27,142 nt of DNA from the NCBI GenBank assembly GCA_031257695.1, contig JAIROB010000105.1, positions 1 to 27,142 on the forward strand, given 5' to 3'. Below, piece after piece: positions 1 through 24,914 of this stretch. How positions within the stretch are numbered: the stretch's first letter is position 1; each line of letters opens with the position of its first letter. The position numbers and the translations under genes were made by a program. Origin of the DNA: Treponema sp. Its GTDB lineage: Bacteria > Spirochaetota > Spirochaetia > Treponematales > Breznakiellaceae. The notes under the pieces were generated by a model. It was not told where the DNA came from. It did not search any database and saw nothing but the letters and a program-made list of their open reading frames with translations.

Positions 1-332
1 GCGGGAACAGGCTTGTTGATGTAGGGCCCGTTCCAGGAAAGCAGGGTGGAATCCTGTTTTTCCCAGAGCGCGTCGAGCCCCTCCAGATCCGAAGGGTAGC
101 GGCCGCAGTCAAAGAAGTATGCGTCCATGCCAAGGACAAAGGTTTCTATCTGGCTGCGGGCGGCGACCGCCTTAGCCTTGTCCAGATACTTGATTGCGGT
201 AAATCCCACGGAAGAGGTCAGCACCAGGATGATGCTGATCACGATCAGGGTTTCGATAAAAGTCCACCCTCCCTCGCGTTCCGGGGGGCGGCGTTTTTCA
301 TTCCCCTCCAGGGGGGTGTTTTTTTTGTTCAT
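1..332 (-). CDS. gspG: Type II secretion major pseudopilin GspG, partial (C-terminus off the left edge)
   Basis: The first 110 residues of a pseudopilin are visible. After a charged 22-residue leader comes a prepilin peptidase site: Gly21-Gly22 followed by Trp23, with the conserved Glu27 at mature position +5. A hydrophobic helix (TFIETLIVISIILVL) and the GspG-type region with DAYFFDCGRYPSDLEGLDAL follow, the part of the family that ends in the DxxxYP...GL pattern. GspG is the major subunit of the periplasmic pseudopilus that pushes substrates through the secretin. Trp at mature +1 is unusual, since Phe or Met is typical. The start is an ATG at 332 preceded by GGAGG at proper spacing. It lies 11 bases after the gspF stop, so it belongs to the same operon. 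The gene is cut by the window edge, so its length and C-terminal calcium site cannot be checked. Confidence 0.93.
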   Translation of the reverse strand, partial: MNKKNTPLEGNEKRRPPEREGGWTFIETLIVISIILVLTSSVGFTAIKYLDKAKAVAARSQIETFVLGMDAYFFDCGRYPSDLEGLDALWEKQDSTLLSWNGPYINKPVP

Positions 333-343
333 CTTTCCTCCTC

Positions 344-1381
344 TTATAAAATAGTTCCGTAAACCGAAAACAGGGGGAGCAGTATTCCTGCCACCAGGGC
401 AAGGATCACCATGCCGATCACGGCGATCAGCGCCGGTTCTATGAGCAGGATAAATTGAGAGATCCTCCGTTCAAGCTCGCCTTGAAAGTAGGACCGCAGT
501 TGGGCAAATACCCTCTCTGTTTTTCCCGAACCCTCTCCTATGGCCGCCCACTGTCCCATGCAGGGTGGGCAAAAGGGATTTTCAAAAAAAGCGCGGGCAA
601 GGCTCGCCCCGTTCAGCAGATCCTCCCGCGCCTGCAGCAGGGACCGGCGGTAGGCGCCGTTGGAAACCAGCGCCGCCGCTTCCAGTATGGCGTCTTCCAC
701 GGGGATGCCGCCCCCGGTTAATACCTCCATGGCAAAGACGAAGTTGAAGCTCTCCCAGGACAGGATAAATTCTCCTGCCAGGGGAGCGGTGAGCGCCAGG
801 CGGTCAATAACGCTGTTGTTCCGCAGAACCCCCGCGGAGCAGGCAAGCAGCGCCCCAAGGATAGCGGGGATGCCAAGGGCCAGTTCCAGGGAGCGCACAT
901 TCCTTCGTATGTTGTCTCCGGCGTCCGCGCCGAAACCGGCAAAGATAAGCTCCATCCTGGGCATTACAAAAAACATGAGCCCCGCCGTTCCCAGAAAAGC
1001 GACAGCAAGCACCAGCGCTGGATAGACCAGGGCGCCGGAAATTTTATCCCGTAGTTTTTTTCTATCCCTGAGGTAGGCCCCAAGCCTGGGAAATATTTTT
1101 TCCACCGACCCAACGGAATTTCCCACCCTGACCATCTCCCGGTACATGGGAGGGAATTCCTCCATCATGTCCATCCCCTGGGCAAAGGTGGCGCCCCTGT
1201 GGATATGCCCCAGGAGCGTTTTTCCCAGGGAAATTTTCCCCCTCGACGCGGCGGAAGAATCCCTGTCCATGAGGGCGAGGGCTTCCAGGGCGTCCCTGAT
1301 GGACAGGCCGGATTCGAGGAGCAGCTCCATCATTTCGGTAAATTCCAAAACCTCCTTTTCATAATTTTTTTTCATGGGCAT
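344..1381 (-). CDS. gspF: Type II secretion inner-membrane platform protein GspF
   Basis: This 345-residue protein has the duplicated GspF/PilC fold. Two cytoplasmic helical domains (about residues 11-110 and 212-305) each precede membrane segments, with hydrophobic stretches near 117-140, 166-186 and 310-335. Family-typical pieces are visible: YPALVLAVA in the first half, GGGIPVEDA near 223, GEGSGKTE near 283 and ILLIEPALIAVIGMVILAL in the last helix. GspF sits in the inner membrane and couples the GspE ATPase to pseudopilus assembly. It is somewhat shorter than the usual 400 residues, with a short N-terminal extension. The ATG at 1381 has a GGAGG five bases upstream. The gene overlaps the end of gspE by 23 bases, which suggests translational coupling. 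A second ATG two codons later is less well spaced. Confidence 0.95.
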   Translation of the reverse strand: MPMKKNYEKEVLEFTEMMELLLESGLSIRDALEALALMDRDSSAASRGKISLGKTLLGHIHRGATFAQGMDMMEEFPPMYREMVRVGNSVGSVEKIFPRLGAYLRDRKKLRDKISGALVYPALVLAVAFLGTAGLMFFVMPRMELIFAGFGADAGDNIRRNVRSLELALGIPAILGALLACSAGVLRNNSVIDRLALTAPLAGEFILSWESFNFVFAMEVLTGGGIPVEDAILEAAALVSNGAYRRSLLQAREDLLNGASLARAFFENPFCPPCMGQWAAIGEGSGKTERVFAQLRSYFQGELERRISQFILLIEPALIAVIGMVILALVAGILLPLFSVYGTIL

Positions 1382-2885
1382 TGCCGCCTCCTTCGGCGGA
1401 GAGTATAATCTCCCGTTCCACCTCAGCCACCGTGGTTATCCCCAGGGCGGCTTTTTCCAGCCCGTCTTCTAACAGGGTCCTCATGCCCCGGCTTTTTAAC
1501 CCTTCCTGCAGGGCGGCAATGTTTGCCTTGCCCAGGATCAGATCCTCCACCGCGGGATCCGCGGTGAACAGTTCCGCCGCCACGGTCCTTCCTGAAAAGC
1601 CCGTGTGGGCGCAGGCCGCGCAGCCCCGTCCCTGGCGGAGGGTCAGCGCAGGGATCCCCGCTGCTTCCAGGAGCCGCCTTTCTTCCGGCAGCGGGTCGCG
1701 ATCTTCGGCGCATTGGGGACAGATCCTGCGGACCAGCCGCTGCGCCGCGGCCCCCCGCAGCGCCGACGCGATAAGGTAGGGTTCAACCCCCATGTTGATC
1801 AGCCGGGGTATAACGGAAGCAGCGTCGTTAGTATGGAGGGTGGATAACACCAGATGACCCGTCAGCGCCGCCCGGAGCGCTATTTCCGCGGTGGCGGAGT
1901 CCCGAATCTCCCCAATCATAATAATATTGGGGTCCTGCCGCAGGACCCGCCGAAGCAGCGTGTCGAAGCCAAGGCCTATCTGTTCGTTGATCTGTATCTG
2001 GTTTACCCCCTCCACAAGAAATTCCACCGGGTCCTCAATGGTTATGATCTTTATGGATTCCGAAACCAGTTCCCGCAGCATCGCGTTCAGGGTGGTGGTC
2101 TTGCCGCTTCCCGTGGGGCCCGTTAAGAGGATCAGGCCGTAGGGCATTCTGAGCAGGCGCCGCAGGGTCCCGAGCTGCGCCTGGTTGAACCCCAATTCAT
2201 CCAGGGAGCCCGCGGCTTTTCTCCCCAGGATGCGGAGAACAATGGATTCTCCCCCGGCGACGGGCACAATGGACACCCGAAAGTCCACCTGATCATTTCC
2301 AAGCCTTACGGTGATCCGCCCGTCCTGGGGCTGCCGCCGCTCAAGGATATTCAGGTTGGCCATAATTTTTATCCGGGAGGAAATTGCCGGGAAGCGGCCT
2401 GCCTCTATTTTTTTTACGGTCCGCAATATCCCGTCAATCCTGTAGCGCACCCGCAGTTCTTCTGCGGATTCCAGATGGATGTCCGAGGCGCCGCAGCGTA
2501 TCCCGTCGATGCAAATGGAATTAACCAGGTTGATAACCGGAGCGTCGTTGGCAAGTTTGTCCAGGAGGACCGCCCGATCCGGCCGGTCCGCTCCCCGTCT
2601 CAAGGCGCCGGCCTGTCCCGGCGCTTCCTGCTTTTCATCCCCCATTTTATTTCCCAGAAACGCGGAGAGTTCCGCCGGATCCAGGGGCACAAAAACCACG
2701 GGCTTTTTATGATAGTTTCTCAGGATGTTCTTGTCCGCTTCCTCCGCTTTTTCGGTAAACCCTATTTCTACGACGCTTTCGTGTTCCCGGAGCTTAATGA
2801 GCCCCCGCTCTTCGATGAATTCTATGGGGTACTGGGAGGAGCCTTCGGGGATCGGGTCAAAATCTTCCATGCTCATCAGTTTCAT
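1359..2885 (-). CDS. gspE: Type II secretion ATPase GspE
   Basis: This is a 508-residue GspE/PilB-family hexameric ATPase that powers pseudopilus growth from the cytoplasmic face. An N-terminal T2SSE_N-like region occupies about residues 1-80. The N2 domain contains ASDIHLES (133-140). Walker A GPTGSGKTT is at 256-264, the Asp box IEDPVE at 283-288, Walker B (RQDPNIIMIGEIRD) around 316-329 and the His box GHLVLSTLHTNDA at 343-355. The C-terminal tetracysteine zinc module is complete (C389, C392, C422, C425). All catalytic elements are present, so it should be active. The start ATG overlaps the gspD stop (ATGA) and has GAGGGG upstream, inside gspD. Length is normal for the family. The zinc module favours GspE or PilB over PilT-type retraction ATPases, and the gsp neighbours decide the call. 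Confidence 0.96.
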   Translation of the reverse strand: MKLMSMEDFDPIPEGSSQYPIEFIEERGLIKLREHESVVEIGFTEKAEEADKNILRNYHKKPVVFVPLDPAELSAFLGNKMGDEKQEAPGQAGALRRGADRPDRAVLLDKLANDAPVINLVNSICIDGIRCGASDIHLESAEELRVRYRIDGILRTVKKIEAGRFPAISSRIKIMANLNILERRQPQDGRITVRLGNDQVDFRVSIVPVAGGESIVLRILGRKAAGSLDELGFNQAQLGTLRRLLRMPYGLILLTGPTGSGKTTTLNAMLRELVSESIKIITIEDPVEFLVEGVNQIQINEQIGLGFDTLLRRVLRQDPNIIMIGEIRDSATAEIALRAALTGHLVLSTLHTNDAASVIPRLINMGVEPYLIASALRGAAAQRLVRRICPQCAEDRDPLPEERRLLEAAGIPALTLRQGRGCAACAHTGFSGRTVAAELFTADPAVEDLILGKANIAALQEGLKSRGMRTLLEDGLEKAALGITTVAEVEREIILSAEGGGNAHEKKL

Positions 2886-4861
2886 AGAGAGCGCCCCTCA
2901 ATTAAATTGTGGTAGTACCGTTCAAATTTGAGGGATGCGTCCTGATCTTCGGCTTCGCTGTCCATGGAAAGGTAGGGGACGATGTAGATGACAATTTCTG
3001 TTTTTTCCCTGATGTCGGTCTGATCCCGAAAAAGCCTTCCCAAAAGGGGTATGTCGCCCAACAGGGGAATCTTCCTGACAATCTTATTAACGTCGTCCTT
3101 CACCAGGCCGCTGAGTACCACCGGTTTTCCCGAGGGGGTACGCACCTGGGTATGCACGACCCGTTCAGAGGTAGTGGGCAGGGCGGTGGAGTCGCTTGCA
3201 GAATTGTTATTCTGTTTCGACACCGTGGCGTTTACGGAAATGGTGATCATGTCGTCGCCGGAAACCCAGCCGTTCAGGGTGACAATGAGCCCCGAAGTTA
3301 TTTCCCTGGTCACCCCGGTGCGGGAAATATTTCCCGTGTCCGCGTCCACCTCAAATTCCTGGTAACGGTAGGTGTCGGTGTTTTGAAATTTTATCTCCTG
3401 CCCCGAAAGACCGTTCAGGGAGGTGTTCGCGTACACCTCCGCGGTGTTGTCCCCAAGCTGGACGCTCAGATTTGCGGCAAACTGGTAGCCGAACTGGGCT
3501 ACCACGTCAAAGCTCAGGTTCATCACATTGGAAAGGTTTCCCAGAAAGGACATATCCCCGGCTTTCGCCCCCTCTTCGGCGCCGTCGATTTGAAGCCCCC
3601 TGTTCACCCTGGCCTCTTTGTTCTTCATATATTCGATGACCAGAAGCTCGTAGCGGAGCTGCGGTTTGGGCCGGTCAATAATCGAGAGATCCTTGAGCAA
3701 AAGCTCCCGCTTGTCCTTCGGGCCGGTGTAAAAAATAAGATTGGGAAACCCCGAATCGACAATTTCTTCCTTCGTTATCCCCGGCGGCAGGGTTTTGAGC
3801 AGCTCCTCTGTTTTCAGGTATTTCAGGGGGATGGGCCAGTTCTCCCCGGGCCGGTCGATCTGTTCAATAAAGGAGATAACCGGGTTTATTTCTTCCGCGG
3901 TCCCCGTAACAATGGCGGCGTTGGTTTTTTTATCGACCCTCAGGCTGTTCCCCGCGGCCAGATCCTGGGGCAGCAGGGCCGTCAGATCCTGCGCTGGAAA
4001 ATAGCGCAGGGGAACAATCCTGGTTTCCCTGAATTTTTTGATAATATCCTTGCGCTGCAATTCTACAATATAGTAGATATTGTTTTGGACGGCATAATCG
4101 GCGTTTCCCTGTTCAAGGATGATCCGCAACAGGGAATCAAAATCTTTGTCCTGATAATAAAGATTTTCCAGCACGGCGTCCGTTTTGGCGAGAATGGAGT
4201 ATTCCCGCCCCGCAATTTTAAAGAGCGCCGGGAGCAGTTCAAGGAACCTGGCGCTTTTCAGGGCTATGGCATAGGCGTCCCCTTCCCGGCTAATCCCCTC
4301 CGCGGGGGCTTCCCTTTGCCGGGACGCGCCGGCTTGGCGTATGTAGTAGTAGGAATCGTTTTTTTCAAGGCTGAACTCCTGGAGCCGCTGCATAAAAATC
4401 TCCAGAACCTTTTCCGGGGTCAGGGCGTTTATGTCCACCGACAGGCTTATCCGGGGCAGGGGATCGTAGAGGATCGTGGTGTTCCACATTTTTGCCAGGG
4501 TCCCTATCAGGTTTTCAATGTCCACATCCTTTGCCCGCAGGCTTACCAGGCCGCTTTCGCCGTCCATGGCCCCCTGGATGCGGGAAACCCGGATGGTATT
4601 TCCCTCCCTGGCGTAGAAAAGATCGTAGGACGCAAGAAAAGCCTTAAGGGAATCTTCAAATTCAGAATCGGAAAAGTGAAAGGTTGCCGTGCCCTCCACG
4701 GTTTCATCCGCGATGATGGATGTTCCGGAAATTTCCGCCAGCGCCATAAGAATGTCCCGTATGTGCTGATTCCGAAAATCCATGCTTTTCATCCGCTGGG
4801 CGGGCAAGCCCTGGTTCAGCAGCAACCCTAAGAGAATGAAAAAACAATACCTTCGCTTCAT
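2882..4861 (-). CDS. gspD: Type II secretion outer-membrane secretin GspD
   Basis: This 659-residue secretin forms the outer-membrane channel of the system. A signal peptide (about residues 1-21, ending LPA) leads into an N0/STN-like domain (DFRNQHIRDILMALAEISGT, about 27-95). Further N-domain repeats follow, one of which has VPLRYFPAQDLTALLPQDL and the NAAIVTGTAEEI motif. The secretin core ends with a good secretin signature: PVVLSGLVKDD, then KIPLLGDIPLLGRLF and the final TEIVIYIVPYL strands. There is no lipobox, so it is probably not itself a lipoprotein. I chose the ATG at 4861 rather than one 12 codons upstream, because GGAGG precedes it and the signal peptide begins there. It overlaps gspE by four bases. 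No GspS-like pilotin gene is visible nearby. Confidence 0.95.
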   Translation of the reverse strand: MKRRYCFFILLGLLLNQGLPAQRMKSMDFRNQHIRDILMALAEISGTSIIADETVEGTATFHFSDSEFEDSLKAFLASYDLFYAREGNTIRVSRIQGAMDGESGLVSLRAKDVDIENLIGTLAKMWNTTILYDPLPRISLSVDINALTPEKVLEIFMQRLQEFSLEKNDSYYYIRQAGASRQREAPAEGISREGDAYAIALKSARFLELLPALFKIAGREYSILAKTDAVLENLYYQDKDFDSLLRIILEQGNADYAVQNNIYYIVELQRKDIIKKFRETRIVPLRYFPAQDLTALLPQDLAAGNSLRVDKKTNAAIVTGTAEEINPVISFIEQIDRPGENWPIPLKYLKTEELLKTLPPGITKEEIVDSGFPNLIFYTGPKDKRELLLKDLSIIDRPKPQLRYELLVIEYMKNKEARVNRGLQIDGAEEGAKAGDMSFLGNLSNVMNLSFDVVAQFGYQFAANLSVQLGDNTAEVYANTSLNGLSGQEIKFQNTDTYRYQEFEVDADTGNISRTGVTREITSGLIVTLNGWVSGDDMITISVNATVSKQNNNSASDSTALPTTSERVVHTQVRTPSGKPVVLSGLVKDDVNKIVRKIPLLGDIPLLGRLFRDQTDIREKTEIVIYIVPYLSMDSEAEDQDASLKFERYYHNLIEGRSL

Positions 4862-4933
4862 GGTCTTCCTCCTGTTTTGGTTTATATCCGGATTCATTTT
4901 CCGCCGGATACTGGTAATAAGGGGAGAAACCTG

Positions 4934-4948
4934 AATTTTGCTTTAGTC
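4934..4948. repeat. Inverted-repeat copy 1 flanking the prepilin peptidase gene
   Basis: TTTGCTTTAGTC (4937-4948) is the exact reverse complement of GACTAAAGCAAA at 5479-5490. This copy lies in the 101-base gap between the peptidase gene and gspD. Both copies are followed on the gene-facing side by long A/T homopolymer runs. It could be an operator half, or the edge of a cassette carrying the peptidase gene; neither is shown. Confidence 0.5.
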
Positions 4949-4962
4949 TCGGTGAAAAAAAA

Positions 4963-5400
4963 TTAAAAAAAACGCAAAAATCGGGAAAAAACGAAGGCGG
5001 CAATGACCCCGGCGGTCAGAAAGGGAGCAAAAGGGAGGGGGATCCTCTCCTGTTTGCCCCGGCGGAGGATAAGGATGAAGCCTATTCCCATGAGGGACGC
5101 GGCAAGGAACGCGACGCATACCCAGGGAAGGCCGCAGCACAGCCCTATGAGCATGGCGAATTTGACATCCCCCAGGCCGAGGGCTCCTGTAAAGCGGCGT
5201 ATAATGAAGAAAAATAAACCGCTCAGCAAAGATGCGGCTACTCTGTCGGGTAGAACGCCGGCGCGCGAACTCAACAGAAATATAAAAACCGCGGCAAACC
5301 CGGGAAAGACGAGCAGATCCGGAATACGGTAGCTCCGTATATCTATCGCCGAAGCGGGCAGAGCGAATACAAGAAAAATCAGCAGCGCCGGGGCGCTCAT
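4963..5400 (-). CDS. Short type IV prepilin peptidase (A24), methyltransferase domain absent
   Basis: This is a 145-residue integral membrane aspartic peptidase of family A24, expected to cleave the leader of GspG and other pseudopilins. Both catalytic aspartates are visible: Asp20 in AIDIRSYRIPD and Asp78 in the GxGD motif GLGDVK (75-80). Five or six hydrophobic segments cover nearly the whole chain. Classical PilD/GspO is about 250-290 residues with an N-terminal cysteine-rich N-methyltransferase domain. That part is missing here, as in archaeal-type and TadV/CpaA-like enzymes. The ATG at 5400 has GGAGG six bases upstream. It is the first gene of the leftward T2SS operon, 101 bases before gspD. 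Its job as the T2SS peptidase follows from context; another pilus system elsewhere could share it. Confidence 0.9.
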   Translation of the reverse strand: MSAPALLIFLVFALPASAIDIRSYRIPDLLVFPGFAAVFIFLLSSRAGVLPDRVAASLLSGLFFFIIRRFTGALGLGDVKFAMLIGLCCGLPWVCVAFLAASLMGIGFILILRRGKQERIPLPFAPFLTAGVIAAFVFSRFLRFF

Positions 5401-5571
5401 GGGAATCCTCCAGCTTTATATGGTACCGCTTTTTTGCGGAAAAGGAAAACGAAAAAAAATAATTTTTTTTTTCGTTTTGACTAAAGCAAATTTCACGGCG
5501 GCGCAATAGAGGGGGTATAAGGGGGAAATTTCAGTTCCCCGAAAGATCCTATGTTATAAGGGGAGGTTTGT
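5401..5571. promoter_or_regulatory. Divergent control region between the T2SS operon and the giant-protein operon
   Basis: This 171-base spacer must carry promoters for both operons. It contains a perfect 14-base A/T palindrome (5446-5459 pairing with 5465-5478, loop of five), a small CCGC/GCGG hairpin (5426-5439), the second inverted-repeat copy (5479-5490) and a GGGGAA/TTCCCC hairpin (5522-5540). A weak plus-strand sigma70 candidate is TTCACG (5492-5497), an 18-base spacer and TATAAG (5516-5521). The minus-strand promoter is unclear; a TATAAA lies close to the peptidase ribosome site. The GGGGAGG before the ATG at 5572 is a strong ribosome site. Shared control of secretion apparatus and cargo is inference from the layout. 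Confidence 0.5.
5446..5478. repeat. Perfect 14-bp A/T-rich palindrome
   Basis: AAAACG followed by eight A's (5446-5459) pairs exactly with eight T's followed by CGTTTT (5465-5478) across a TAATT loop. It sits 46-78 bases upstream of the prepilin peptidase start, in the divergent promoter region. It lacks the GC stem of an intrinsic terminator. It could be a bent or cruciform-prone regulatory site, or a weak bidirectional terminator. Confidence 0.6.
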
Positions 5572-7047
5572 ATGAAAAACTGTATCGCCGGTCTTGTTAT
5601 TTTTATTGCCGGTATGGGATTAGGCGCCCAGGAGACTCCAATCGCTCTGTTGGAAGACTCCTGGATGGAGCCGGGCCGGGTGACGGAAATGCTGGCGCTC
5701 CACGATCTGCAGGGGGGCGTCTATATCCCCTCTATTGCGGGGAACGCGTTCCGGGTCCTCCGGGCCGGCGCCGGAGAAAGGCTGGGTCCCTATGCGCCGG
5801 AGGGCTTTGACGGCGTATCCCCTGCCGCCAGGAATCTCAAGGCGATTAGCGACGGGTCCGAAAGGTACCTTGCGTTTATTGGCCGCCGGGACGGCGTCGA
5901 ATCGGTGTGCCTCTTTGGTTTTGGATTCTGGGACGCATTGTCCTACTATCCCCTGGCGGAAACAGAGGCCGAGGCCATAAGGGACTATGACCTGGTTCCT
6001 ACCAAAGGCGGCGGCCTCACGGTCTACACCCTTGCCGGGGGCCGCCTGCGAAGTTTTTCCACGATAAAACGCGGCGATACCCTGTGGCAGGAACGGGAAA
6101 TCTCCCGGCCCGGCGAACAAGCCGAAGCCTTTGGGGTCCTTAGGGAACGCAATCAGGAAATAAGCTACGGCTGGTACCGTATCGCCCGGAAAGATTATTG
6201 GGAGATAAACCTCTTTTCCGTGAACGGCGCGGGGAATCTTGTTGTGGAGCAAACCGGGTCCTGGTCTCATGCGCCCCGGCTTGAATACGGCGTTTCCCCG
6301 GAGGGAAAAGCGGTTTTTACCATCACTGCGGGCAGCGCGGTTTCGGTGTTCCACGCCGAAGGCCCGCGCTTTGTGCGGGATTTGATTTTTAACGCCCCCT
6401 TCGCGGCAAAGCGGTACAGCCCCGCGCTGCTTAGGGGAGGATCTCCGGGCCTGCTGATCGGTGAAGCGGAGGGGACGGATGTCCTCTACGGGGTAAGCCA
6501 CGAACGGTCCGGCGCGCCGGCGCTCAGGGAATTGTTCGCCCGGCCTTCGGCGGAGATTCTGGAGCTGTTCTTGACGGGGAATAACCGTATTTCCCTTATT
6601 TACCGCGTCGATCAAATCCTGGGCGCAGCCCTGCTGCATACCGACGGCGGCATTATTGCCGACAGGCCCCTGCCCGTATCCTCCGGGGGAGCGGCGCTGT
6701 TCCGGCAACCCCCGGAGGAAAACCGTGTCTACGCCCTTTCCAGGGCATCCCCGGCGGAATCCTTCCTCCTGTCCATGTTCGAGTTTGAAGGCGAAACCTG
6801 GCGTCCGGCGGGGGAGACTCGGGTTTCCCGGTTTTTTCCGGAGAAAGCCCATTCCCCCCTGGGCATTCGGGATGAGGAGCTGCTCCTTATGAGTTCCCCG
6901 GAGGCGCTGATGCTGTATGAAACGGAAACTTCCAAAAGCCAAATCCTGGAAATGGAAAATTACGCTCTGAGCAACGCGCTTAACGGCGTTGTATATCTGG
7001 CGGTCAGCTCCGAAAAGGGAATTTCCCTGTACCGGATCGGGGAGTAG
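5572..7047 (+). CDS. Secreted protein with beta-propeller-like character, function unknown
   Basis: This 491-residue protein has a clear signal peptide (about residues 1-19, hydrophobic core ending GMGLGA before QE). I do not recognise the family. The mature part is rich in short beta-strand blocks, each about 40-50 residues, with aromatic, Gly and Asp turns (for example DGVESVCLFGFGFWD, GGLTVYTLAGGRLRSF, KGISLYRIGE at the end). This is what a multi-blade propeller looks like. No catalytic motif is apparent and there is no lipobox or C-terminal membrane anchor. Its ATG has GGGGAGG upstream. It ends three bases before the giant gene, so the two are almost surely co-transcribed and perhaps coupled. 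A role as a partner, chaperone or co-exported factor of the giant protein is inference from that coupling. A propeller also occurs near the giant protein's C-terminus. Confidence 0.85.
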   Translation: MKNCIAGLVIFIAGMGLGAQETPIALLEDSWMEPGRVTEMLALHDLQGGVYIPSIAGNAFRVLRAGAGERLGPYAPEGFDGVSPAARNLKAISDGSERYLAFIGRRDGVESVCLFGFGFWDALSYYPLAETEAEAIRDYDLVPTKGGGLTVYTLAGGRLRSFSTIKRGDTLWQEREISRPGEQAEAFGVLRERNQEISYGWYRIARKDYWEINLFSVNGAGNLVVEQTGSWSHAPRLEYGVSPEGKAVFTITAGSAVSVFHAEGPRFVRDLIFNAPFAAKRYSPALLRGGSPGLLIGEAEGTDVLYGVSHERSGAPALRELFARPSAEILELFLTGNNRISLIYRVDQILGAALLHTDGGIIADRPLPVSSGGAALFRQPPEENRVYALSRASPAESFLLSMFEFEGETWRPAGETRVSRFFPEKAHSPLGIRDEELLLMSSPEALMLYETETSKSQILEMENYALSNALNGVVYLAVSSEKGISLYRIGE

Positions 7048-7050
7048 GCC

Positions 7051-16000: not shown

Positions 16001-19000
16001 TGGGAAAAGCCGAGCTTGCCCTGAAGAAAGTTACCCTCTCCGCAAGCGCGGGAATGAAGGTTTCGGGGGGCGCGTTTAAATTGCCGAACTTCAATGTGGG
16101 GCTTTTTGTCTTCAATAATGTGATGGTTAATTTTTCCCTGTCCGGTTCACAGTATACTCTGGAAGGCGGCGGTTCCGTGACGATCCCCGGAGCGGGAAAC
16201 ATCAGCGCCACCCTTGGGTTCACCACAAAAAGCCCGACCTATCCCATCGGGCTCAAGCGGGCGGAATTTTCCTATACCCTCAGCGTTGGGGGAATTCCCC
16301 TGGGCGCCACCGGCCTGTTCATCAACGGCATTGCGGGGGGCCTTAGTTACGGCCCCCCCGACGAGGTTCCCGCTATAGCCAGGGGCCTGTTCAACGACAC
16401 CGGCCCCAGGATGAAAGTGGGATTGAGCGTGGGGGATTCCACAGGGGGGTCCATTCTCAGTATGAAACCTACCACCTGGGTGGACATATCCAACGGAACC
16501 TGGGCTTTTAAAGGCAGCGCCGCGGTATTGAAGGGCACCCTCAATTTTACTGCCGATGTGACCGCCGCGTTAGGCAGCAAGGGATTCGTTGGGAGCCTGG
16601 CTGTGGACATCAGATTTGCCAGGGGCGAAGTCACGGTCTATGTCTTTGACAAAGCCGGGAACGTTATTATGTCCGGCGAGGGGTATGTGCAATTCGGCAT
16701 CCCCCAAGGAATTATTCTCGATGTCTGGTTTATTGAGATTCCTTCCAGCGATGTCTGGCTTGCAAAGGTGAACGCCGCATTTGGGAAATTTACCAACGGA
16801 AGCACGGGGGTAAAGGGGACGGTGGATGCGCCGGTTTTGGGCACCGTGGGCGTTTTTGTGGGGACAAATGGAATCAAACTGGGCTCCCTGTCCAGTTACA
16901 CCATAGAAAAACCAAGCTGGAGCAAAAGCATCCGTTTTTTTGGCGACGACAACATTGATTCCTATGACAACAGAGACTCAAGCGGGAATGAGGATACGCT
17001 GTATCAGTTCTTTGTCCCCCCCAAGGGCGTGGACACAGCGGCGCCCCTCAGCCTGCTCCATGAAGCATATGCCGGGGACGAAACTATTCCCGGCAGCGGG
17101 CTTGACCGGCTTGTGGTCGTGCTTGAGTATCCCGACGGGGCGCCGGATCTTACGGTAATTTCTCCCCTGGGAATTGAATACAGCGAAGGCTGCGAAGGCT
17201 GTGAAACGATTGTTGAAGAAAACGGCATTATAATGATTGTCTTTTCGGAGGAGGCGGGGATCTGGCAAGTGCGGGTAAGGGGGCTTGAAGATGAAGCCTA
17301 CCGGCTGCACGCCCTGGGCAGCATGGCCATGCCGCTGCTTGAACTTGAGGAACCCGCGCTTTTGCCGGACTTTGCCGCGGCAAAGACCCGGGGCGAAGCG
17401 AGGGTACGGGGAAAAACCGAAAAGGGTTTGAACAGTATTCGTATTTTTGCCAGGGAATCCATGGAGCTTCCGGGATTTGATCTGGGAAGTTATGCCGTTG
17501 ATCCCGAGGGCCGATTCGACATGGTAGTTCCCCTGTGGGATCTCGGCGACGGCGAATACCTTATTTACGCGGAGCTTGAAGGGCCCGGCGCGGAATTGTT
17601 TCCCCCGGCCTACGCCCCGGGGAAGATCCTTCTGGACAGGAGCGATCTCCCCATGCTGGCGCCCCAGGCGCGGGTAGCGGAAACCGATTCGGGAATTCTG
17701 AGCCTTCGCTGGCACAATACCAATGCCGGACGCGCCGTAGGGTACAAAGTAAAAATTTTTGACCATGGCGAGGAAACGGAATCCATTGTGTATGCGGGCA
17801 ATATTACCGCCATGGATTTTCCGGGGTATGCCCCTGGACAGGAAGTGTCCTTCTCCGTCGCCGCCCTGGACAATACGGGCGGGATGGGGCCCTGGTCGGA
17901 GCCGGTTTCCATACAACCCGGTTATGAAAAGCCCCTGGTCAACCGGCCGGCGGCCCTGTTGGAGCGCATTGAGGCTAAGGGTCTTGCCGGCGGGTTTATT
18001 GAAGGCGTCATAAGAGCGGATATTGCAGACTTTGAGGATCGCGGCGATGCCGCGGGGTATGTGGGGGTCCGCTATGCAGGCCCTCCCCTGGAGCAGCCGC
18101 TTACCCTGCGCTTTGCCCCCCCCGCGCGGGTTTCGGAAAAAGGCGTGGAAATACCCTGGTTTATGGGCATTGGAGAATCCATGGCTCCGGGTCTCTACGA
18201 ATACCCTTTCGAGTTTTTTAACGAAGCCAATGGAGCGCTGAGGGATCCCTTCATCCTGGCGGTGGAGATAGACTGGCCTGAGCCGGAAATTTTCTGGATA
18301 GATCCGGATGAAATAAGCGGAATCCGCGAAACCACCCTAACTGTTCACGGCAGGGGTTTTGTTCCCGGAACCAGGGTTTTTTGGAGGGATACGGAACTGG
18401 TTATCCTTGAGGGCGACTCAGGAACGATGAAGGCGACTATGCCGCCCCGGTTCGGGGCCGCCGAGGCGCAGAGGGCCGACACGGAACAGGGGGAGCTTGT
18501 CGTCCAGGGTCCAGGGGGCGGCAGGGCCGTTTTCCCGGTGACAGTATTGCTGCCCGGCTATAGACTCAGCCTGTATACCCGGACAGCGGAAACCCGTCCC
18601 GGCGGAAGGGCGGACTATGCCCTGGCGGTGGAATCCCTGAACGGGTTTGGGGGAAACCTATCATTCAGGGTGGTTGAAAAACCGGAGGAACTGGAAATTT
18701 CCCTGCCTGAATTTGCCCTAAACCCGGGGGCGGACCCTGTGTCGGGAACCATAGCGATTCAGGCGGGGAAAAACGCCCTCCCCGGTTCGTATAGCGTTGT
18801 TATTGAAGGGGACGGGGGCAAGCTCCTTGAATTGGTTCTTGCGGTACGCTCCGCGCCGCCCCCGCCCGCTCTTTCCAGCGTGATTCCCCGGGCGGCCTAT
18901 GCCGGCGATACGGTTCATGTGTACGGAAATAACCTTGGGCGGGAAGGAAAACTGTTTCTCAACAACCGGGAAATGCCGGTTTCTTCCTGGTCCGAGGGAG

Positions 19001-22000
19001 AGATACTGTTTGTGATTCCCGAGGACGCCCTGAGCGGCGAGGTTTATGTTCTTTCGGAGGGGATACAGAGCAATACCCTGTCCTTTACGGTGAGGAACCG
19101 GGGCTTTGATCTGCGCCCCTCCGCAAATATCCTGGAACTCAACGCCGGGGAGGAGAAAACGATTCCCCTTGCCATAACGGGGCATGATGACACAGTTTCC
19201 CTGAGCCTTGCCTGCGATCCCGGCGCTCCCTTTACAGCCGCCCTGAGCAGAACCGCTGTGAAACCCAAAGAACCCCTGGAGCTGACCGTAAAAGCCGACG
19301 CCTTTGCGGGGACCGGAAGCTGGCTTGTGGTTGTTCGCGGCGAAAACCGGGGCTTTGAAGATTCCGCAGAAATACGGGTTGTCATCGGCAGTTCCCTTCG
19401 CATTGCCACCGAGAGCCTTCCGGACGCTCTGGTGGATGTCGGCTATTACGCCGAACTTGCCAGTCAAAACGCCAGGGGTTCCCTTACCTACCGGGTGGCG
19501 CGGGGCAGCTTCCCTCCGGGGCTTTCCATGACCCCCCTGGGCATTATAAGCGGACAGTCCGCGGAAAGAGGCCGGTACGAAATGGATATTGAAGCGCGGG
19601 ACAGCATGGGCTGGAAGGATAAACGCTCCTTTGCCATTACCGTGTGGGAAGAATACTGGGGGCAGGCCGGGAAAGACGGCGGGAACACCCGGTTCGTAAA
19701 AACGGATCTGGGCGCCAACGATGCTACCGCCTGGATCTACCAGGGAGAGGAGCCTGTTGTTCAGCTTCTTGGCGCGGAGGACAGGATCATCGCCCTGGGC
19801 GGCAAAAACCTGTTTGCCCTGGATGTGAGGGACGGCTCCCGGTCCTGGAGTGTGCCGGGAACCTATAAGACCATACTCTGCGCCGGGGCCAAACTCTACG
19901 CCCTGGCGGAAGGAGGGCGGCTTGATGTCAGGGACCCCCGGAACGGCGCCCTGTTGTGGACCCGGAATAATATAGAAGGGATCAGCTCCGACGGGGCCAC
20001 CGTGCTTGAGGAGACCGCCACCCGGCGCTTCTTTAGAAACGCCGAGCGGGGAACTTTGATTGAGGAGCAGCAAAGGGGCGAAGGCAGCGACGCTATTCTC
20101 TGGCATTACGGCTCGGCCTATGCGCTGCGGGACAGCGCCCTGGTTCCCCTGTACGGTCCCGGCGCAGCCTGGGATGCGGGGGAGAATATCCTTGCCGCGG
20201 CCGCGGATATCCGGGGAGGAGCGGCGCTCACCGAACAATCCCTCATCCTCTTTGACCGGAACATGGGGGAAACACAGCGGGTAGCCGCGGCTCATGGTCC
20301 GGGGGCGGCCTTGTCCCTGACCGACGGGGGCGTGTCGGTAATTGACGGAGGGTATCTGAGATCCTATGACCGGGAAGATCTGCGTTTCCAATGGGAGCGC
20401 AGGATAAACGGCCGCGCCATGCTTGGAAACGGCATTGAAAAAACGGTCGTTGCCGGCCCGGAGGGACTGACGGTTTTGAACCGCTACAACGGCAGCGTTA
20501 TATGGCAGGACGCAAAACCCTGCGCGGATTTTGCGCTCTACCACGGAAAAATATTTGCATCCCGGGGGGACGGTTCCATTGCGGCGTTTAACGGCGCCCC
20601 AAATGTCGCGGGCCCCGTAACGGAACTGCGGATCGATCCGCCGTCCCCCGGGGAATCGCTCTGGTATACCCGGCGGCCCAGGATCGAAATAAGCAGCGTC
20701 GACAGGGAAACCTACACCGCGCGGACCCTGATACGGGACAACGACGGCCCCTGGACCGACGCTCCCGCATCGTTTACGCCGGAGGACGGGGAACGCCTCA
20801 TTGCCGCTTACGGCGTGGACACCAGGGGGCTTGCGGGAGCGGAGGCCAGGCTGCAGTTCAGGGTTGACACCGGATTGCCCGATAGCGACATTGAACTATC
20901 CCCTGAAGAACCGGAGAGCGGCTGGCATAAGGAGCCCGTCACGATTGCCATAGAAGCCTGGGACGAGGTTTCGGGAATCGATTGGATTTGGACTTCTTCT
21001 TCGGCCTATGCCGGACCTGTGCTTCTTGCAGATCAGGGGATCCACCGCTTTTCCTGGCAGGCCCTGGATCGCGCGGGCAACCGGGAGCCGCTCCGGGAGG
21101 TGGAGATCAGAATCGATCTTGAGCCGCCCCAGGCGGAAGCCTCGGTGGAGCGCGGCTACGGCCTGGCGGAGCTTGCCCTTGCCGCCTTGGATTCGCTGTC
21201 GGGGGTGGCGTTTATCGAATACCGGATCGACGCCGGCGCGCCGCAGCGGTATGAGGAACCGGTCTTGTTTGCCGAGCCCGGAACCTACCGCATAGGCTAC
21301 CGGGCTTTTGACCGGGCGGGAAACGGCGGCGACTGGCAGAATTGCGATGTGTTCGTAGCGCCGGACAATACCGGCGCGGTCATTATCGACACGCCCCTCC
21401 TCAACGGCATGGCCCGCAAGGTGATGAGCCGCGCCCGAAACGGTATGCCCCTGGTTGGCAGGGAGGATCAGGAGTTCAGAGCCGGGGATCCCGGGGCAAT
21501 GACAAACCTCCCCTCATATACCCTGGGAGCGGAGTACATACGCTGGGATCCTGAGGACGCGGCGCTCGATGAAAACGCGGTCATTCGTTTCCGGGTAAAG
21601 CGGAACGCAGTGGTCTACCTGTTCCTGCCCCGCACTGTCCCGGCGCCCCGGGGCTGGAGTCTGGTGGAAGACAGGGCGGCGCTAAACCGCCTCTACTATC
21701 CCGGAGGAGCCGCGGTATATATGAGGCGTTACGGCGCCGGGGCCTTGGCGGAACTGCCGGGAACCCCCGCGGGCGCGGCGCTTCCCCTGATCATGGCGCA
21801 GGAAAGGGGCGAGCTGACCTCGGATATACTGATCCGCCGGGAAAAGGGCAAAGAAGGGTTCATCCTGGAAGCCCTGGTCCAGCCCCGGCTGCACAGCCGG
21901 CGGCTGCCCCTGCAAAGGCGCTGGTTCGCCAACGCCGGCGACGGCTGGGAGGCGCTGGAGGGGAACCGTTACGAAGGGGGCGCTCCGAAAGAAGCGTCCG

Positions 22001-22113
22001 TGGAAGAAGAGACCATTGCGGCGCCCCTGCGGTTCAGGCTGGAACTGTACACCCCGGACGGTGAAGTGGAGCGCCGGGTAGAAAAGGTGTGGGAAACGGA
22101 GGAGGAATTTTAA
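7051..22113 (+). CDS. Giant (5,020-residue) secreted multidomain Ig/beta-solenoid/TIG/PQQ-propeller protein
   Basis: A single uninterrupted 15-kb reading frame. Residues 1-24 are a signal peptide. Residues 25-155 form an N-terminal domain encoded by noticeably AT-richer DNA. About residues 160-1330 carry some eleven Ig-like modules, each ending in a D-x-TPP-type linker and often containing DxAGN. Residues 1334-3284 form a long beta-rich repetitive region. One section (about 2272-2881) has units of about 70 residues with a G-N-I-x-L-P...P-x-x-L-x-G pattern. About 3290-3420 may be a PPC-like domain with a CxxC (EGCEGCE). FN3-like sequence lies at 3531-3620, TIG/IPT at about 3747-3835 and 3937-4015, He_PIG-like sequence at 4117-4200 and a PQQ-type propeller at 4201-4520. 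Ig-like modules with DRAGN follow at 4521-4774, then a C-terminal domain to 5020. No LPxTG, autotransporter barrel or T9SS tail is seen. GGGGAG precedes the ATG. A surface fibre or adhesin secreted by the adjacent T2SS is a reasonable inference; substrate and partner are unknown. Confidence 0.93.
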   Translation: MRDNFKLIVLAGIFLCMAPLMAKALDYSNTYKINNDYEITITLKNADKIATNNGIRYYRGGRPSLDIDVTYNFVFIGSAYKPYYKTIVDVFDKNKNKIKSSEGIDTFSLSNFANLSGDISLTILVECWYQSANEALRDVFKTYLSSSTQFTLRFSEDTTVPVVTVSNGGIPVPDTLYARYPIELTGSAVDEGSGVNEGAWTYKLGSESTTAGNSVAASSLYFDRSLTFYARDRLENIGYKTIRLIADKTPPEITITASPSTEWAGGSGATITAYASDEQSGVDPNTWQYSTNGGSTWSAEGTTSQLTISSNGKHYVRFLVKDNAGNTGGGSITFGVDRTPPAVSITTSPSNEWTSGPQMTITASASDALSGVNRKTWQYSTNGGSTWSAEGTTTQLTISDEGRYNVSFGVKDNAGNTGITSITRGIDRIPPALEVTGGTGDAWSVNSTVVLNIRASDALSGLAFLEYSYQNSSYWSSLNLNQTSLTISSDGQKNFVFRARDAAGNSSSVTATVNIDTTLPYFLAYLNNCAYRESNGWVIPLIVSRVSDTGSGLDYGSFKYALDGGAWTTIPGSFSGSGFNLPVSIASLSAGNHTIKLSVADKAGNRAEQVFDFIADHTPPAITGGSTLGSTANGAPWTNQDRVACAVTDAETGLSSYSREVNTVLSNGYLSPFSGYSYTGKEFVFNSDAPDGTYRISIKAADNANNASERIFYYRLDRTPPDISSTLIKSISPSVTIGGTDALSGLNSGNCWTTALAGVSGAAGYTVNLPTGIHETEFTLRDVAGNSVTKMVSIYVDQNPPGVAITAPEYGSAEELSVKISISSSVMAINDVWYMLDGFKTVLGKANWNSLTIPLSSYAEGIHTIKAGALNEVGLSAESASHQFIVDRTAPELKGYELRSAANPERVIAEGEYIPGGSVQVNISAEDLYNNGSQKNRGIIKYYSWAITRKLSDTPFFTSDKRSAANEFTVQDFSDGLSYLCVRAEDGAGNLSQPLRIPVLQDQSSPGAPVIKSSTHAEALRAEQAGFLSRGEFSFSPAFGMKSGVKAYQWKVEKLYILNNIAGNALLVREGNRAEIDQEGRSGLSIELADNDENEFYQLSALCVGGNGKTGPWATYRFRIDSEAPRGLIVQAVPQVDSSSWYNQRDALIRWNKPQDMTGVAEYRHIVLDDEETRSSPLEERDTSSWGKTEDTQIKADLRNILGAKKSGKAHIGISAVDYAGNSKLGLFSFGYDFIPPQFNQSALLISDAENALGAGKLVRWGGVRDEESGPDRIVILVSSGDTTSAYTVEPELTEYIVSPLAEDKAYAVVVRAYDRAGNQAELYDVCVTGNTAMPSAYYIPYLETIKGYDISGKRRVEGGEISFEDLSLGIPEALELSAIVNSNGAVSRNSLGEIPLGDISVRDGAFQTGKSPGGAYELRSGGFTLEASAVGFSRDGGLSLEDAAYVRPVILSGVKQERRISLGAVNAGEPPLIQFSSGSSAIGAEARIESVYTENSGETQSGFDLTGVDSLFLSGGREWFGGAGISFDRKPLTGMGIRLEDAQGKALLGNCSMEAFSGNLTALLDISAQRPLSLVMGDAAYRVISAGIRGNLLDIYEAVLPLPAGYEPPELTVRNITIDSRTGTVRGGPDFSAGTIAITGPNGIGFEGTTIRLDSRGNLLVTGDFYSEAYGIYRAENILLSGQGIDWDLGVEIRDFSGEVHGFLINAQKARVTASGIFIAEGNISVWGNQQRVAALGLRGDRKDAVWQEGIISGTFYGDPGYGSPVQMSGGKVADEGVFAEAVIPLGDSIVDTTGAKQWTLPKARLYPNFAMTGSFPGERTLIVGNTPVRAENCYFDEQGLRIGKARVEHIPNLSPETLVFTGIGLRSQGLSVEGVSEGSVLFSASGWRIGYASLGFDGQGIKGRGSLELPEKMGGLALVFPETRITAEGFFASGNPDETLEILRFHGLPVFADGVELKVLEGAYALELASPRISLKAIGGPDIFFGKTVFDAEGKVLRGDRETRKVNFTALNSYRIGVENSGIDDQGFFLSGSISLQLFGRDIVIAGGTYRILPDLSVSGTGPDTGLTYSFGDWSISGKDIVFDPDRIRIGSNRVLFREVEFDIGEIPFSLDGRLLQKVTRNQELRVSLFGTGARIAETRFSEGGIEASVVITLPSVLGGQSFAFDKVGFKANGDFWIEKKVDKFNFTALGFSFAMEELTLDKLGLRAAKASITLPYSMEAVNFTVHDVTISAAGEVGIGSAAITPFTLWNMQFSLNNFSIVDGEAAFQGKVTLPSTLPEKLSGREIQIREFTASLEGGIRAMDICLEGDYTVPLGGVWNLLFRNVRISYAAGQPWVSAERTELLFPEGYGAKSGYVDQAKINPLNGQFVFSEIAFAADLHMNFWGVDFTLNKLKIDSKYSLEFGGSVRFPDSDLPAFLAGKTAAFNRFEIKSDGTLGAIDIKLEGLEGGIIPGLEGLVLKKGSVSLLKQGDKSLILDIGGNITLGSSMPAGLAGAALKIETFTYDTGARAIQRLKATAVLPTANSLGNAFSKLSIGVDWNEVKQTGYLNLAGNLILPSSLPAFLAGKEAKISNFKIGFDGVIQSFTAKFATEKNKAYNALGFLQLSDVAIEAALKSGVMKFALDGIAILPETRFPQGIGGLRTAIAMEFDTVSGLKAASAQASLPNANLFGSMELRGGKIGISKPEGKALEISVGGNIALPQSFPEGLRGIVVGIRTLTINTSGEIMDVDIGASGIGANIFGTAELINGSINFKKGAESEFLVNIGGSIRLSGAGLPEGLRNSTVEIRTLELSTRSGLRSFSAGLKGELGFSILGGLKITVSSIECSETGISMSASAKLPANYPNGLANAQFALSALKLQWNGALLDIKGGLKAWSMTLAGFTATMEELYFDKDAAGQFSVALKSCKVQLPHNFGSLGGQYVAIKNAKFSPRDGSFLGDIEVSKLETEIVGFKLILEKPSLSVSEGLVNFSKATLKLPDFLGKAELALKKVTLSASAGMKVSGGAFKLPNFNVGLFVFNNVMVNFSLSGSQYTLEGGGSVTIPGAGNISATLGFTTKSPTYPIGLKRAEFSYTLSVGGIPLGATGLFINGIAGGLSYGPPDEVPAIARGLFNDTGPRMKVGLSVGDSTGGSILSMKPTTWVDISNGTWAFKGSAAVLKGTLNFTADVTAALGSKGFVGSLAVDIRFARGEVTVYVFDKAGNVIMSGEGYVQFGIPQGIILDVWFIEIPSSDVWLAKVNAAFGKFTNGSTGVKGTVDAPVLGTVGVFVGTNGIKLGSLSSYTIEKPSWSKSIRFFGDDNIDSYDNRDSSGNEDTLYQFFVPPKGVDTAAPLSLLHEAYAGDETIPGSGLDRLVVVLEYPDGAPDLTVISPLGIEYSEGCEGCETIVEENGIIMIVFSEEAGIWQVRVRGLEDEAYRLHALGSMAMPLLELEEPALLPDFAAAKTRGEARVRGKTEKGLNSIRIFARESMELPGFDLGSYAVDPEGRFDMVVPLWDLGDGEYLIYAELEGPGAELFPPAYAPGKILLDRSDLPMLAPQARVAETDSGILSLRWHNTNAGRAVGYKVKIFDHGEETESIVYAGNITAMDFPGYAPGQEVSFSVAALDNTGGMGPWSEPVSIQPGYEKPLVNRPAALLERIEAKGLAGGFIEGVIRADIADFEDRGDAAGYVGVRYAGPPLEQPLTLRFAPPARVSEKGVEIPWFMGIGESMAPGLYEYPFEFFNEANGALRDPFILAVEIDWPEPEIFWIDPDEISGIRETTLTVHGRGFVPGTRVFWRDTELVILEGDSGTMKATMPPRFGAAEAQRADTEQGELVVQGPGGGRAVFPVTVLLPGYRLSLYTRTAETRPGGRADYALAVESLNGFGGNLSFRVVEKPEELEISLPEFALNPGADPVSGTIAIQAGKNALPGSYSVVIEGDGGKLLELVLAVRSAPPPPALSSVIPRAAYAGDTVHVYGNNLGREGKLFLNNREMPVSSWSEGEILFVIPEDALSGEVYVLSEGIQSNTLSFTVRNRGFDLRPSANILELNAGEEKTIPLAITGHDDTVSLSLACDPGAPFTAALSRTAVKPKEPLELTVKADAFAGTGSWLVVVRGENRGFEDSAEIRVVIGSSLRIATESLPDALVDVGYYAELASQNARGSLTYRVARGSFPPGLSMTPLGIISGQSAERGRYEMDIEARDSMGWKDKRSFAITVWEEYWGQAGKDGGNTRFVKTDLGANDATAWIYQGEEPVVQLLGAEDRIIALGGKNLFALDVRDGSRSWSVPGTYKTILCAGAKLYALAEGGRLDVRDPRNGALLWTRNNIEGISSDGATVLEETATRRFFRNAERGTLIEEQQRGEGSDAILWHYGSAYALRDSALVPLYGPGAAWDAGENILAAAADIRGGAALTEQSLILFDRNMGETQRVAAAHGPGAALSLTDGGVSVIDGGYLRSYDREDLRFQWERRINGRAMLGNGIEKTVVAGPEGLTVLNRYNGSVIWQDAKPCADFALYHGKIFASRGDGSIAAFNGAPNVAGPVTELRIDPPSPGESLWYTRRPRIEISSVDRETYTARTLIRDNDGPWTDAPASFTPEDGERLIAAYGVDTRGLAGAEARLQFRVDTGLPDSDIELSPEEPESGWHKEPVTIAIEAWDEVSGIDWIWTSSSAYAGPVLLADQGIHRFSWQALDRAGNREPLREVEIRIDLEPPQAEASVERGYGLAELALAALDSLSGVAFIEYRIDAGAPQRYEEPVLFAEPGTYRIGYRAFDRAGNGGDWQNCDVFVAPDNTGAVIIDTPLLNGMARKVMSRARNGMPLVGREDQEFRAGDPGAMTNLPSYTLGAEYIRWDPEDAALDENAVIRFRVKRNAVVYLFLPRTVPAPRGWSLVEDRAALNRLYYPGGAAVYMRRYGAGALAELPGTPAGAALPLIMAQERGELTSDILIRREKGKEGFILEALVQPRLHSRRLPLQRRWFANAGDGWEALEGNRYEGGAPKEASVEEETIAAPLRFRLELYTPDGEVERRVEKVWETEEEF
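7801..8340 (+). repeat. Two tandem near-identical Ig-module repeats (about 270 bp each)
   Basis: Two adjacent 90-residue modules inside the giant gene (7801-8070 and 8071-8340) are highly similar at the DNA level. They share the protein block TWQYSTNGGSTWSAEGTT, then QLTIS and VKDNAGNTG. Other Ig modules of the protein share only the framework (TPP linker, SG turn, AGN). This points to a recent tandem duplication and a place where module number could change by recombination. Confidence 0.85.
13864..15690 (+). repeat. About 70-residue solenoid repeats in the giant protein
   Basis: Units begin near 13864, 14272, 14500, 14713, 14935, 15145, 15360 and 15561, so most are spaced 67-76 codons apart, with the first spacing longer. 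Each starts with Gly-(Asn/Ser)-hydrophobic-x-Leu-Pro, continues with Pro-x-x-Leu-x-Gly (for example LPSSLPAFLAGKEAKI, LPQSFPEGLRG), then an alternating hydrophobic strand and G-x-hydrophobic. DNA identity is low, so this is an old protein repeat. I do not recognise a named family. Resemblance to AsmA/TamB-like or other beta-solenoid repeats is only in strand periodicity. Confidence 0.75.
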
Positions 22114-22880
22114 AGAACAAACTTTTTGATAGCCTGGCCGACGCCGCCTTTGCCGCAGTCGCCGGTGATCGCGCCGGCCAGCGCTTTTAGCTCATCCGAG
22201 GCATTGCCCATGGCGATGCCAAGACCTGCGGCGCAGATGATGTCTATGTCGTTTTTGCTGTCGCCGATGGCAATACTGTTTTCCCGGGGAATGTTCAGAG
22301 CCTCAAGGGCTATGGACATTCCCTTTGCTTTGCTTTCCCCCAGGAGTATTCCTTCAAAGTAATTTTCAAATATGTTAAGGTGAAAATAATCGCCGAGCAG
22401 TTTTTGTTCCGCATCGCTGGCGGGGCCGCCGATGGTCACCTTGGAAACGATTGCGCCGGAGTATTTCCTAAGGAAATCGTCCTCCCTGGTTATGGGCAGT
22501 ATCTCTCCGCCCCGGCCGTAACGCTCAGGAAGGTTGATCCCGTACACAGCCTCCACCCCTTCAAATACACAGAACTTATCCTGGGTAAAATAAAAGGCGC
22601 AGATTGACGGAAGTATCTCCCGGGGAACCCATTTGTGGTAGAGGGTTCTACCCCCCATAACAACCTGGGCGCCGGCGCCGGCGATAAGGCCGTCCAGCCA
22701 GGGCGCCTCCCGCAGCGTCCGGGGTATATGGCCCAGGGACCGGCCGGTGCTGAGAAAAATTTTATGGCCCCTGCGGTGCGCTTCTTCGATTGGCTCAAGG
22801 TCCTCCCGAAAGGGGCCCTGCAACCTGGTGATCAGGGTTTCGTCAATATCCAAAAAAATAGCCTTTTGTGCATTGTTCAT
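22110..22880 (-). CDS. Cof-type HAD phosphatase
   Basis: This 256-residue HAD-superfamily hydrolase is of the Cof (class IIB) type, cytoplasmic, and probably acts on sugar phosphates or similar small phosphoesters. All four motifs are visible: motif I DIDET (nucleophile Asp11, acid Asp13), motif II STGRS near 40, the motif III lysine in ESKAKGMSI, and motif IV GDSKNDIDI near 212 for magnesium. A C2-type cap lies between motifs II and III. The ATG at 22880 follows the preceding HAD gene by five bases, making it the last gene of the pyrE operon. GGGAG lies nine bases upstream. Its stop overlaps the stop of the giant gene on the other strand by three bases. The exact substrate cannot be read from sequence. 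Confidence 0.9.
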   Translation of the reverse strand: MNNAQKAIFLDIDETLITRLQGPFREDLEPIEEAHRRGHKIFLSTGRSLGHIPRTLREAPWLDGLIAGAGAQVVMGGRTLYHKWVPREILPSICAFYFTQDKFCVFEGVEAVYGINLPERYGRGGEILPITREDDFLRKYSGAIVSKVTIGGPASDAEQKLLGDYFHLNIFENYFEGILLGESKAKGMSIALEALNIPRENSIAIGDSKNDIDIICAAGLGIAMGNASDELKALAGAITGDCGKGGVGQAIKKFVL

Positions 22881-22885
22881 GCGCT

Positions 22886-23593: not shown

Positions 23594-23601
23594 TCCCTTT
23601 C

Positions 23602-24189: not shown

Positions 24190-24195
24190 GGCTAG

Positions 24196-24225
24196 ACTAT
24201 ACCCGGGAACAGGGGCGGGCCGCAA
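24196..24225 (-). promoter_or_regulatory. pyrE promoter, predicted to give a leaderless mRNA
   Basis: On the minus strand TTGCGG (24225-24220), an 18-base spacer and TATAGT (24201-24196) form a sigma70-like promoter. Only CTAGCC separates the -10 box from the pyrE ATG at 24189, so the transcription start would fall at or next to the A of the ATG. No ribosome-binding site is present. Confidence 0.55.
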
Positions 24226-24244
24226 GGCAGGGAGCAATGAAGAG

Positions 24245-24271
24245 ACAACAAGGAACAGGTTCCCGTTGTTT
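24245..24271 (-). terminator. Imperfect hairpin between the protease gene and pyrE
   Basis: ACAAC-x-x-GGAA and TTCC-x-GTTGT (24245-24271) form an interrupted stem downstream of the minus-strand aspartic protease gene and upstream of the pyrE promoter. No convincing T run follows on the minus strand, so termination is only suggested by its position. Confidence 0.3.
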
Positions 24272-24908: not shown

Positions 24909-24914
24909 TCGGCC

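Follow-up and report, generated by a model that had tools for sequence, protein, structure and literature searches.

Does the type II secretion system (T2SS) encoded at one end of this Treponema contig export the 5,020-residue protein encoded beside it? The window analysed here, the whole stretch of 27,142 nucleotides of contig JAIROB010000105.1 (Treponema sp.), carries a run of T2SS genes on the minus strand and, reading away from them across a short spacer, the genes for a 491-residue protein (PROP) and the giant protein itself (GIANT). A T2SS acts after Sec export and periplasmic folding of its substrate, which passes through the secretin GspD in a step powered by GspE and the pseudopilus. 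A first-pass annotation of the sequence had proposed that this apparatus is dedicated to GIANT, with PROP as a partner. We consider it probable, from the sequence and its relatives, that the window holds the end of a T2SS operon of a Treponema primitia-like spirochaete together with the divergent gene of a linked giant cargo that is moved by this T2SS.

The reading frames and their Pfam identities confirm the layout described in that annotation, with T2SS genes running leftward and the other two genes running rightward. The minus strand encodes gspG (3..332; major pseudopilin, truncated by the window end; PF08334, E 2.8e-12), gspF (344..1381; inner-membrane platform protein; PF00482, E 2.9e-35), gspE (1359..2885; assembly ATPase; PF00437, E 6e-122), gspD (2882..4897; outer-membrane secretin; Secretin at E 1.2e-29, Secretin_N and GspD N0) and gspO (4963..5400; prepilin peptidase; PF01478, Peptidase_A24, E 9.1e-15). 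The divergent spacer (5401..5571) is 171 bp long if the ATG starts are correct. On the plus strand, the PROP stop codon (gene 5572..7047) lies 3 bases ahead of GIANT (7051..22113; 538 kDa, pI 4.9), and both proteins have signal-peptide-like starts. The start-to-start gap between gspO and PROP is 98 bp in Treponema primitia (G226) and 122 bp in G431, and no sigma-70-type promoter consensus was found in window positions 4900-7100, divergent junction included.

The components are those of a T2SS, namely a secretin with a GspD-type N0 domain, clustered GspE, GspF and prepilin peptidase, and a GspG pseudopilin. A PDB sequence search with the window gspD returned T2SS GspD as the top matches, and T2SS models ranked first in NCBIfam for gspD, gspE, gspF and gspG. 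The four nevertheless score under the curated cut-offs (gspD, 135.6 bits against 351.35 for the TIGR02517 equivalog; gspE, 507 against 630; truncated gspG, 49.9), and for this reason we read the system as a divergent T2SS; the G226 gspG homologue in the same place scores 119.8 bits and passes the NCBIfam GspG cut-off of 88.85. Beyond gspG, G226 carries another pilin-like gene, GspK-, GspL-, GspM- and GspC-like genes (by eye and order, with a weak T2SSM match, E 0.0076) and a lipoprotein gene, and GspC, K, L and M lie outside the window. A short lipoprotein, possibly a pilotin (CarboxypepD_reg-like part and weak TPR matches; L049:9025-9690 and homologues), ends most of the T2SS operons read.

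By homology, GIANT is a member of a conserved protein family. Residues 1401-3700 gave 25 protein matches besides the window's own (33-80% identity, 74-100% coverage), those with names coming from treponemes or other spirochaetes, and identity among relatives across entire alignments is 23-67%. Past residue 300, the G226 protein aligns with GIANT over 4,693 residues at 51.5% identity (75 residues inserted, 27 missing), and that of G003 over 4,658 residues at 39.7% identity (226 inserted, 106 of them at one site, and 62 missing). Because about 5,000 codons are kept open in relatives with few and mostly short indels, the uninterrupted frame noted at first pass is real and not the product of chance. 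Seven sequences were tested for the start, which is signal-peptide-like by eye and by hydropathy, although two (G390 and G250) fall under the hydropathy limit. The same seven share no other consistent membrane-like stretch; G226 and G003 each have one borderline stretch near residue 3,100. Two further observations concern the frame itself: several relatives have in common, by eye, an 'EYR-EK' type stretch close to the C-terminus (window 22000-22113), and the GIANT frame of G004 (Brucepastera) is interrupted (L051:12188-20000 and L097:1-10556).

We then compared the distribution of GIANT, queried with residues 2001-3400, with that of gspD. Among 296 spirochaete genomes, gspD was present in 136 at E<=1e-3 and in 32 at E<=1e-50, the latter class being taken as the window-type T2SS. 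GIANT was found in nine of the 296 at E<=1e-3; all seven counted as strong have gspD at E<=1e-50 (hypergeometric, 9e-8), and the two weak ones (G077 and G229) also have gspD. The GIANT of G301 was missed in this set because only the end of the gene is present on a contig. In the family set of 195 members, gspD was found in 31, 30 of them at E<=1e-60 (G377 dropped), and eight of the ten GIANT genomes have it (hypergeometric against the 30, 5e-6). The other two, G333 and G402, have no gspE match either and carry GIANT on contigs of 6.7-15 kb.

Linkage was read from the genomes of relatives besides the window. GIANT-bearing genomes number 18 (ten of the family set, G004, G144, G246, G250, G285, G301, G012 and the window), six of which could not be judged for distance because their contigs end (G001, G390, G402, G333, G418 and G441). 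In eight of the 12 judged, GIANT lies within ~6 kb of the T2SS genes (window, G226, G431, G246, G250, G285, G301 and G012), and it does so in three arrangements. PROP and GIANT adjoin gspO-gspD divergently in the window, G226 and G431. In the second arrangement GIANT shares a strand with gspG and lies upstream of it: the order is GIANT-(~1,090)-(~400)-(~300)-gspG (gene products in residues) in G246 and the contig-cut G301, GIANT-(~1,090)-(~310)-gspG in G250, and GIANT directly before gspG in G012. In G285 it lies 3.4 kb downstream of a gspO-D-E-F-G-...-lipoprotein operon, again on the same strand. At contig edges, PROP adjoins gspO in G001, whose GIANT piece is on a different contig, and on a second G431 contig. 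In a gspD tree of 63 rows, all GIANT genomes fall in the larger main branch (46 rows) with the linked ones in several places, and the smaller branch (17 rows) includes a GIANT genome solely through the second gspD of G152. The linked label requires at least six changes on supported branches, so the linked genomes do not form one clade.

Several observations weigh against a cargo relationship. No match to GIANT 2001-3400 was found in 22 of the 30 family T2SS genomes, and G002, with a gspD 76% identical to that of the window, has no PROP, GIANT or gspO match across the 19.5 kb read at its T2SS locus (L002). Four of the 12 judged loci are unlinked, namely G003, G152, G144 (36 kb) and G004, whose two T2SS clusters are each more than 350 kb from GIANT; the neighbour of PROP in G390 is not gspO; and in G246 an additional copy of GIANT, together with a follower of ~1,130 residues, lies away from the T2SS (L090). 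The statistics of this analysis also ignore shared ancestry, and the E-value and distance limits were chosen after the data had been seen. The comparison of neighbourhoods proposed at first pass gave a divided answer: GIANT without gspD is rare (2/10) and T2SS without GIANT is common, so GIANT follows the T2SS and not the reverse. The co-occurrence, the linkage and the signal-peptide-like start support the first-pass proposal in part, but its exclusive form does not survive. As a separate observation on G004, its first T2SS has beside it a gene of 2,739 residues and another of at least 3,357 residues.

These absences and unlinked loci are what would be expected if the T2SS exported ordinary enzymes and GIANT were a mere neighbour using another export route. 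We regard this explanation as unlikely, given the three linked arrangements, one of them same-strand before gspG, and the near confinement of GIANT to T2SS genomes.

In GIANT, an Ig-like array (Big_13, Big_3_3 and OmpL47-type domains) spans residues ~165-1330 (7543..11040, plus strand, approximate borders), residues ~1380-3330 (11188..17040, plus strand, approximate borders) match no Pfam family over cut-off, and the best TIG, He_PIG and PQQ_2 stretches lie at residues ~3939-4306 (18865..19968, plus strand). The first 2,500 residues exceed the cut-off of the OmpL47-type domain model NF047446 (127.1 bits against 40); as a Leptospira OmpL47 equivalog, GIANT was rejected (NF047441, 76.2 bits against 250), and it is also far longer. 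AlphaFold models residues 2251-3450 as beta nearly throughout, with residues 2431-2960 as repetitive beta (pLDDT 88.2, pTM 0.68). Neither of two models of the centre gave a confident family via Foldseek or VIA; LptD and ApoB100 were the top Foldseek matches of the longer one, and AsmA, TamB and VPS13 were absent among the matches listed, an absence that does not exclude such a fold. DUF945, which we take to be AsmA-like, matched weakly in two of 16 GIANT relatives (best E 0.022). Profile autocorrelation of the centre placed lags 71-72 and 139 among the top, with every mean score negative. A profile search for relatives 0.55-1.75x the length of a 1,200-residue central slice yielded three proteins, two of which are 78% identical to the window and are probably pieces of giants.

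The repetitive beta prediction, the LptD and ApoB100 matches and the DUF945 signal would fit a GIANT that does not leave the periplasm or outer membrane and there serves the T2SS in a structural or lipid-handling capacity, its ~2,000-residue centre forming an AsmA/TamB- or GspN-like beta-groove. GspN, a T2SS accessory protein predicted in a passage of PMC12802150 to be an AsmA-like beta-taco, resembles GIANT in being linked to a T2SS and in having a repetitive, beta-rich region, although in GIANT no sequence family passes its cut-off there and no fold match is confident. We judge this possibility improbable.

Other giants occur at spirochaete T2SS loci. An RHS search of nine GIANT genomes was positive in four, with some RHS genes at the T2SS locus in G246, G004 and G285 and none there in G144; the five RHS-free genomes (G226, G250, G431, G003 and G012) all have GIANT, linked in four. 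Among 14 further T2SS genomes, RHS was found in 13; in 12 of them it shares a contig with gspD and is no more than ~20 kb away from it (in G167 it lies on other contigs, and G063 has none). This set includes G009 and G301, whose T2SS-near giants had already been seen, the RHS of G009 being known beforehand; without G009 the count is 11/13. As a control, 20 arbitrary 20-kb windows were examined, and two held an open reading frame of at least 1,400 residues; Fisher tests gave 2.6e-5 for 11/13 against this control and 3e-4 for 12/14 against a doubled control. That the linkage of GIANT reflects chance and shared ancestry draws on the non-independence of relatives and on an arbitrary G246 control window that also contained a 3,506-residue frame, but it is very improbable, since gene orders differ between gspD sub-clades and since, among genomes with long contigs, GIANT lies within 6 kb in four of six (G226, G246, G250 and G012 against G144 and G004), a result of ~1e-7 if independent.

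Six genomes (G214, G196, G211, G261, G301 and G246; loci L154, L157, L158, L159, L163 and L167) have, on one strand, gspD-E-F-G-(~400)-(~200)-(440-700 residues)-RHS, with RHS proteins of 1,946-2,093 residues and, in some, small extra frames. In five genomes (G179, G302, G125, G283 and G187) a downstream same-strand gene encodes 3,246-3,415 residues; that of G317 is longer. The G179 and G125 giants, when scanned, matched SpvB/TcdB_midN/RHS and are TcB-like; relatives of the G179 giant are present in G482, G397 and G396, and the TcB-like gene of G457 runs on the opposite strand. The TcB-like or similar genes of ~3,300 residues downstream of T2SS genes (L155:3897-13859, L160:2674-12921, L156, L162, L166, L189, L190 and L191) are listed two by scan, three by similarity and the rest by size and position. 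By eye, the giants at T2SS loci have signal-peptide-like starts. Of 40 T2SS genomes viewed over ~14-37 kb, a non-random set that excludes those viewed over shorter stretches, 26 have a giant of the RHS, TcB-like or GIANT kind. The 14 with no assigned giant (G400, G415, G451, G470, G480, G481, G053, G063, G144, G441, G002, G003, G013 and G007) add to the points against; G063 has a 1,501-residue unassigned frame 12 kb from its T2SS.

RHS and TcB-like proteins resemble GIANT in neighbourhood, signal-peptide-like start and giant size, but share no detectable homology with it. GIANT had no Pfam RHS match to E 0.5 and did not match spirochaete RHS/TcB profiles, and hhalign of six GIANT segments against RHS/TcB gave E 0.048 or worse, the positive control of RHS against TcB reaching 1.7e-32. 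From the different giants at T2SS loci and the five RHS-free genomes with GIANT, we infer a cargo position that varies. The T2SS of Spirochaetota is then more aptly seen as a module with different linked giants in different lineages, with RHS/TcB-like proteins of ~1,900-3,500 residues in many lineages, GIANT elsewhere and sometimes nothing recognised. The fuller proposal, that the spirochaete T2SS is a specialised exporter of giants with an exchangeable cargo position, and that GIANT (>500 kDa) is secreted and acts at the surface, possibly via a continuous beta structure of ~2,000 residues and of an unsolved kind, we hold more tentatively, at somewhat less than an even chance.

A cargo role for GIANT would proceed as follows. 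GIANT would be made with a Sec-type signal peptide and fold in the periplasm into an Ig-like chain, a repetitive beta region and a PQQ-type domain. The neighbouring T2SS, as the linkage suggests, would then carry it over the outer membrane; a long thin beta protein could, speculatively, go through lengthwise. At the surface or after release it may act as an adhesin or contact effector; hints of such a role come from its Ig-like, TIG and PQQ domains and from the RHS/TcB proteins that occupy the corresponding site. Gene content, homology, linkage and co-occurrence are observed, while T2SS dependence, surface location and role are predicted from them, and PROP may be a periplasmic or surface partner.

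A search with PROP gave 48 proteins (query included), and the G226 gene in the equivalent place is 37% identical. The first-pass description of it as a propeller found no backing in sequence searches, which gave no Pfam, NCBIfam or PDB-sequence match. For 12 of the 26 GIANT matches (window's own included), a PROP match comes from a contig of identical length, suggesting that the two genes share a contig. The proposed partnership agrees with the position of PROP directly ahead of GIANT in the window's closer relatives, but does not extend to distant ones, where the gene before GIANT is unsupported as PROP (G250, G144, G285 and G152) or weakly similar (G246, E 4e-4). PROP also did not match the gene before RHS (L157:8982-10409 and L158:9270-10586), which is lipoprotein-like and has what we take to be a clostripain-type start motif. 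Between GIANT and gspG, G301 (L098:2-5375) and G246 encode a ~1,090-residue protein, an SH3_3 protein and a weak TIR_2-match protein. The ~1,090-residue protein has NlpC/P60-like stretches by eye; its G301 copy matched no Pfam family at E<=0.01. Four further copies were scanned at E<=1; a pair of them gave nothing, and the other pair gave only matches below curated cut-offs. On the 3' side of GIANT (window 22110-26500) are two HAD-type hydrolases, an SDF-family symporter and tRNA-Glu, the first HAD gene adjoining GIANT in G226 as well.

The apparatus in the window is of a known kind; what sets it apart is a linked putative cargo of ~5,000 residues. To our knowledge, the other named folded T2SS cargos are, like cholera toxin, far smaller than GIANT. 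Folded cargos given in a passage of PMC9251779 include the 88-kDa cholera toxin AB5, and the same source gives 6,497 residues for SprB, a cargo of the type IX secretion system. SiiE, a type I secretion system cargo, is put at 595 kDa in PMC6272769; SprB and SiiE are thus giant exported proteins, but their export machines differ from the T2SS. For spirochaetes, PMC4793230 did not detect a complete T2SS in Leptospira, and in PMC3482391 the term 'T2SS' refers to the Sec/general secretory pathway. Among the matches listed from the open PMC literature, we found no description of a T2SS-linked giant in spirochaetes, of the GIANT family or of the cargo-position pattern.

If this reading is correct, GIANT would be a T2SS cargo that exceeds the classical folded substrates several-fold in size, and spirochaetes would have a way to export giant proteins that work at the surface or as effectors. 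The T2SS would also become a candidate exporter of RHS/TcB-type proteins in Spirochaetota, and cultured Treponema primitia would offer a system in which to test how a 540-kDa protein gets through a secretin.
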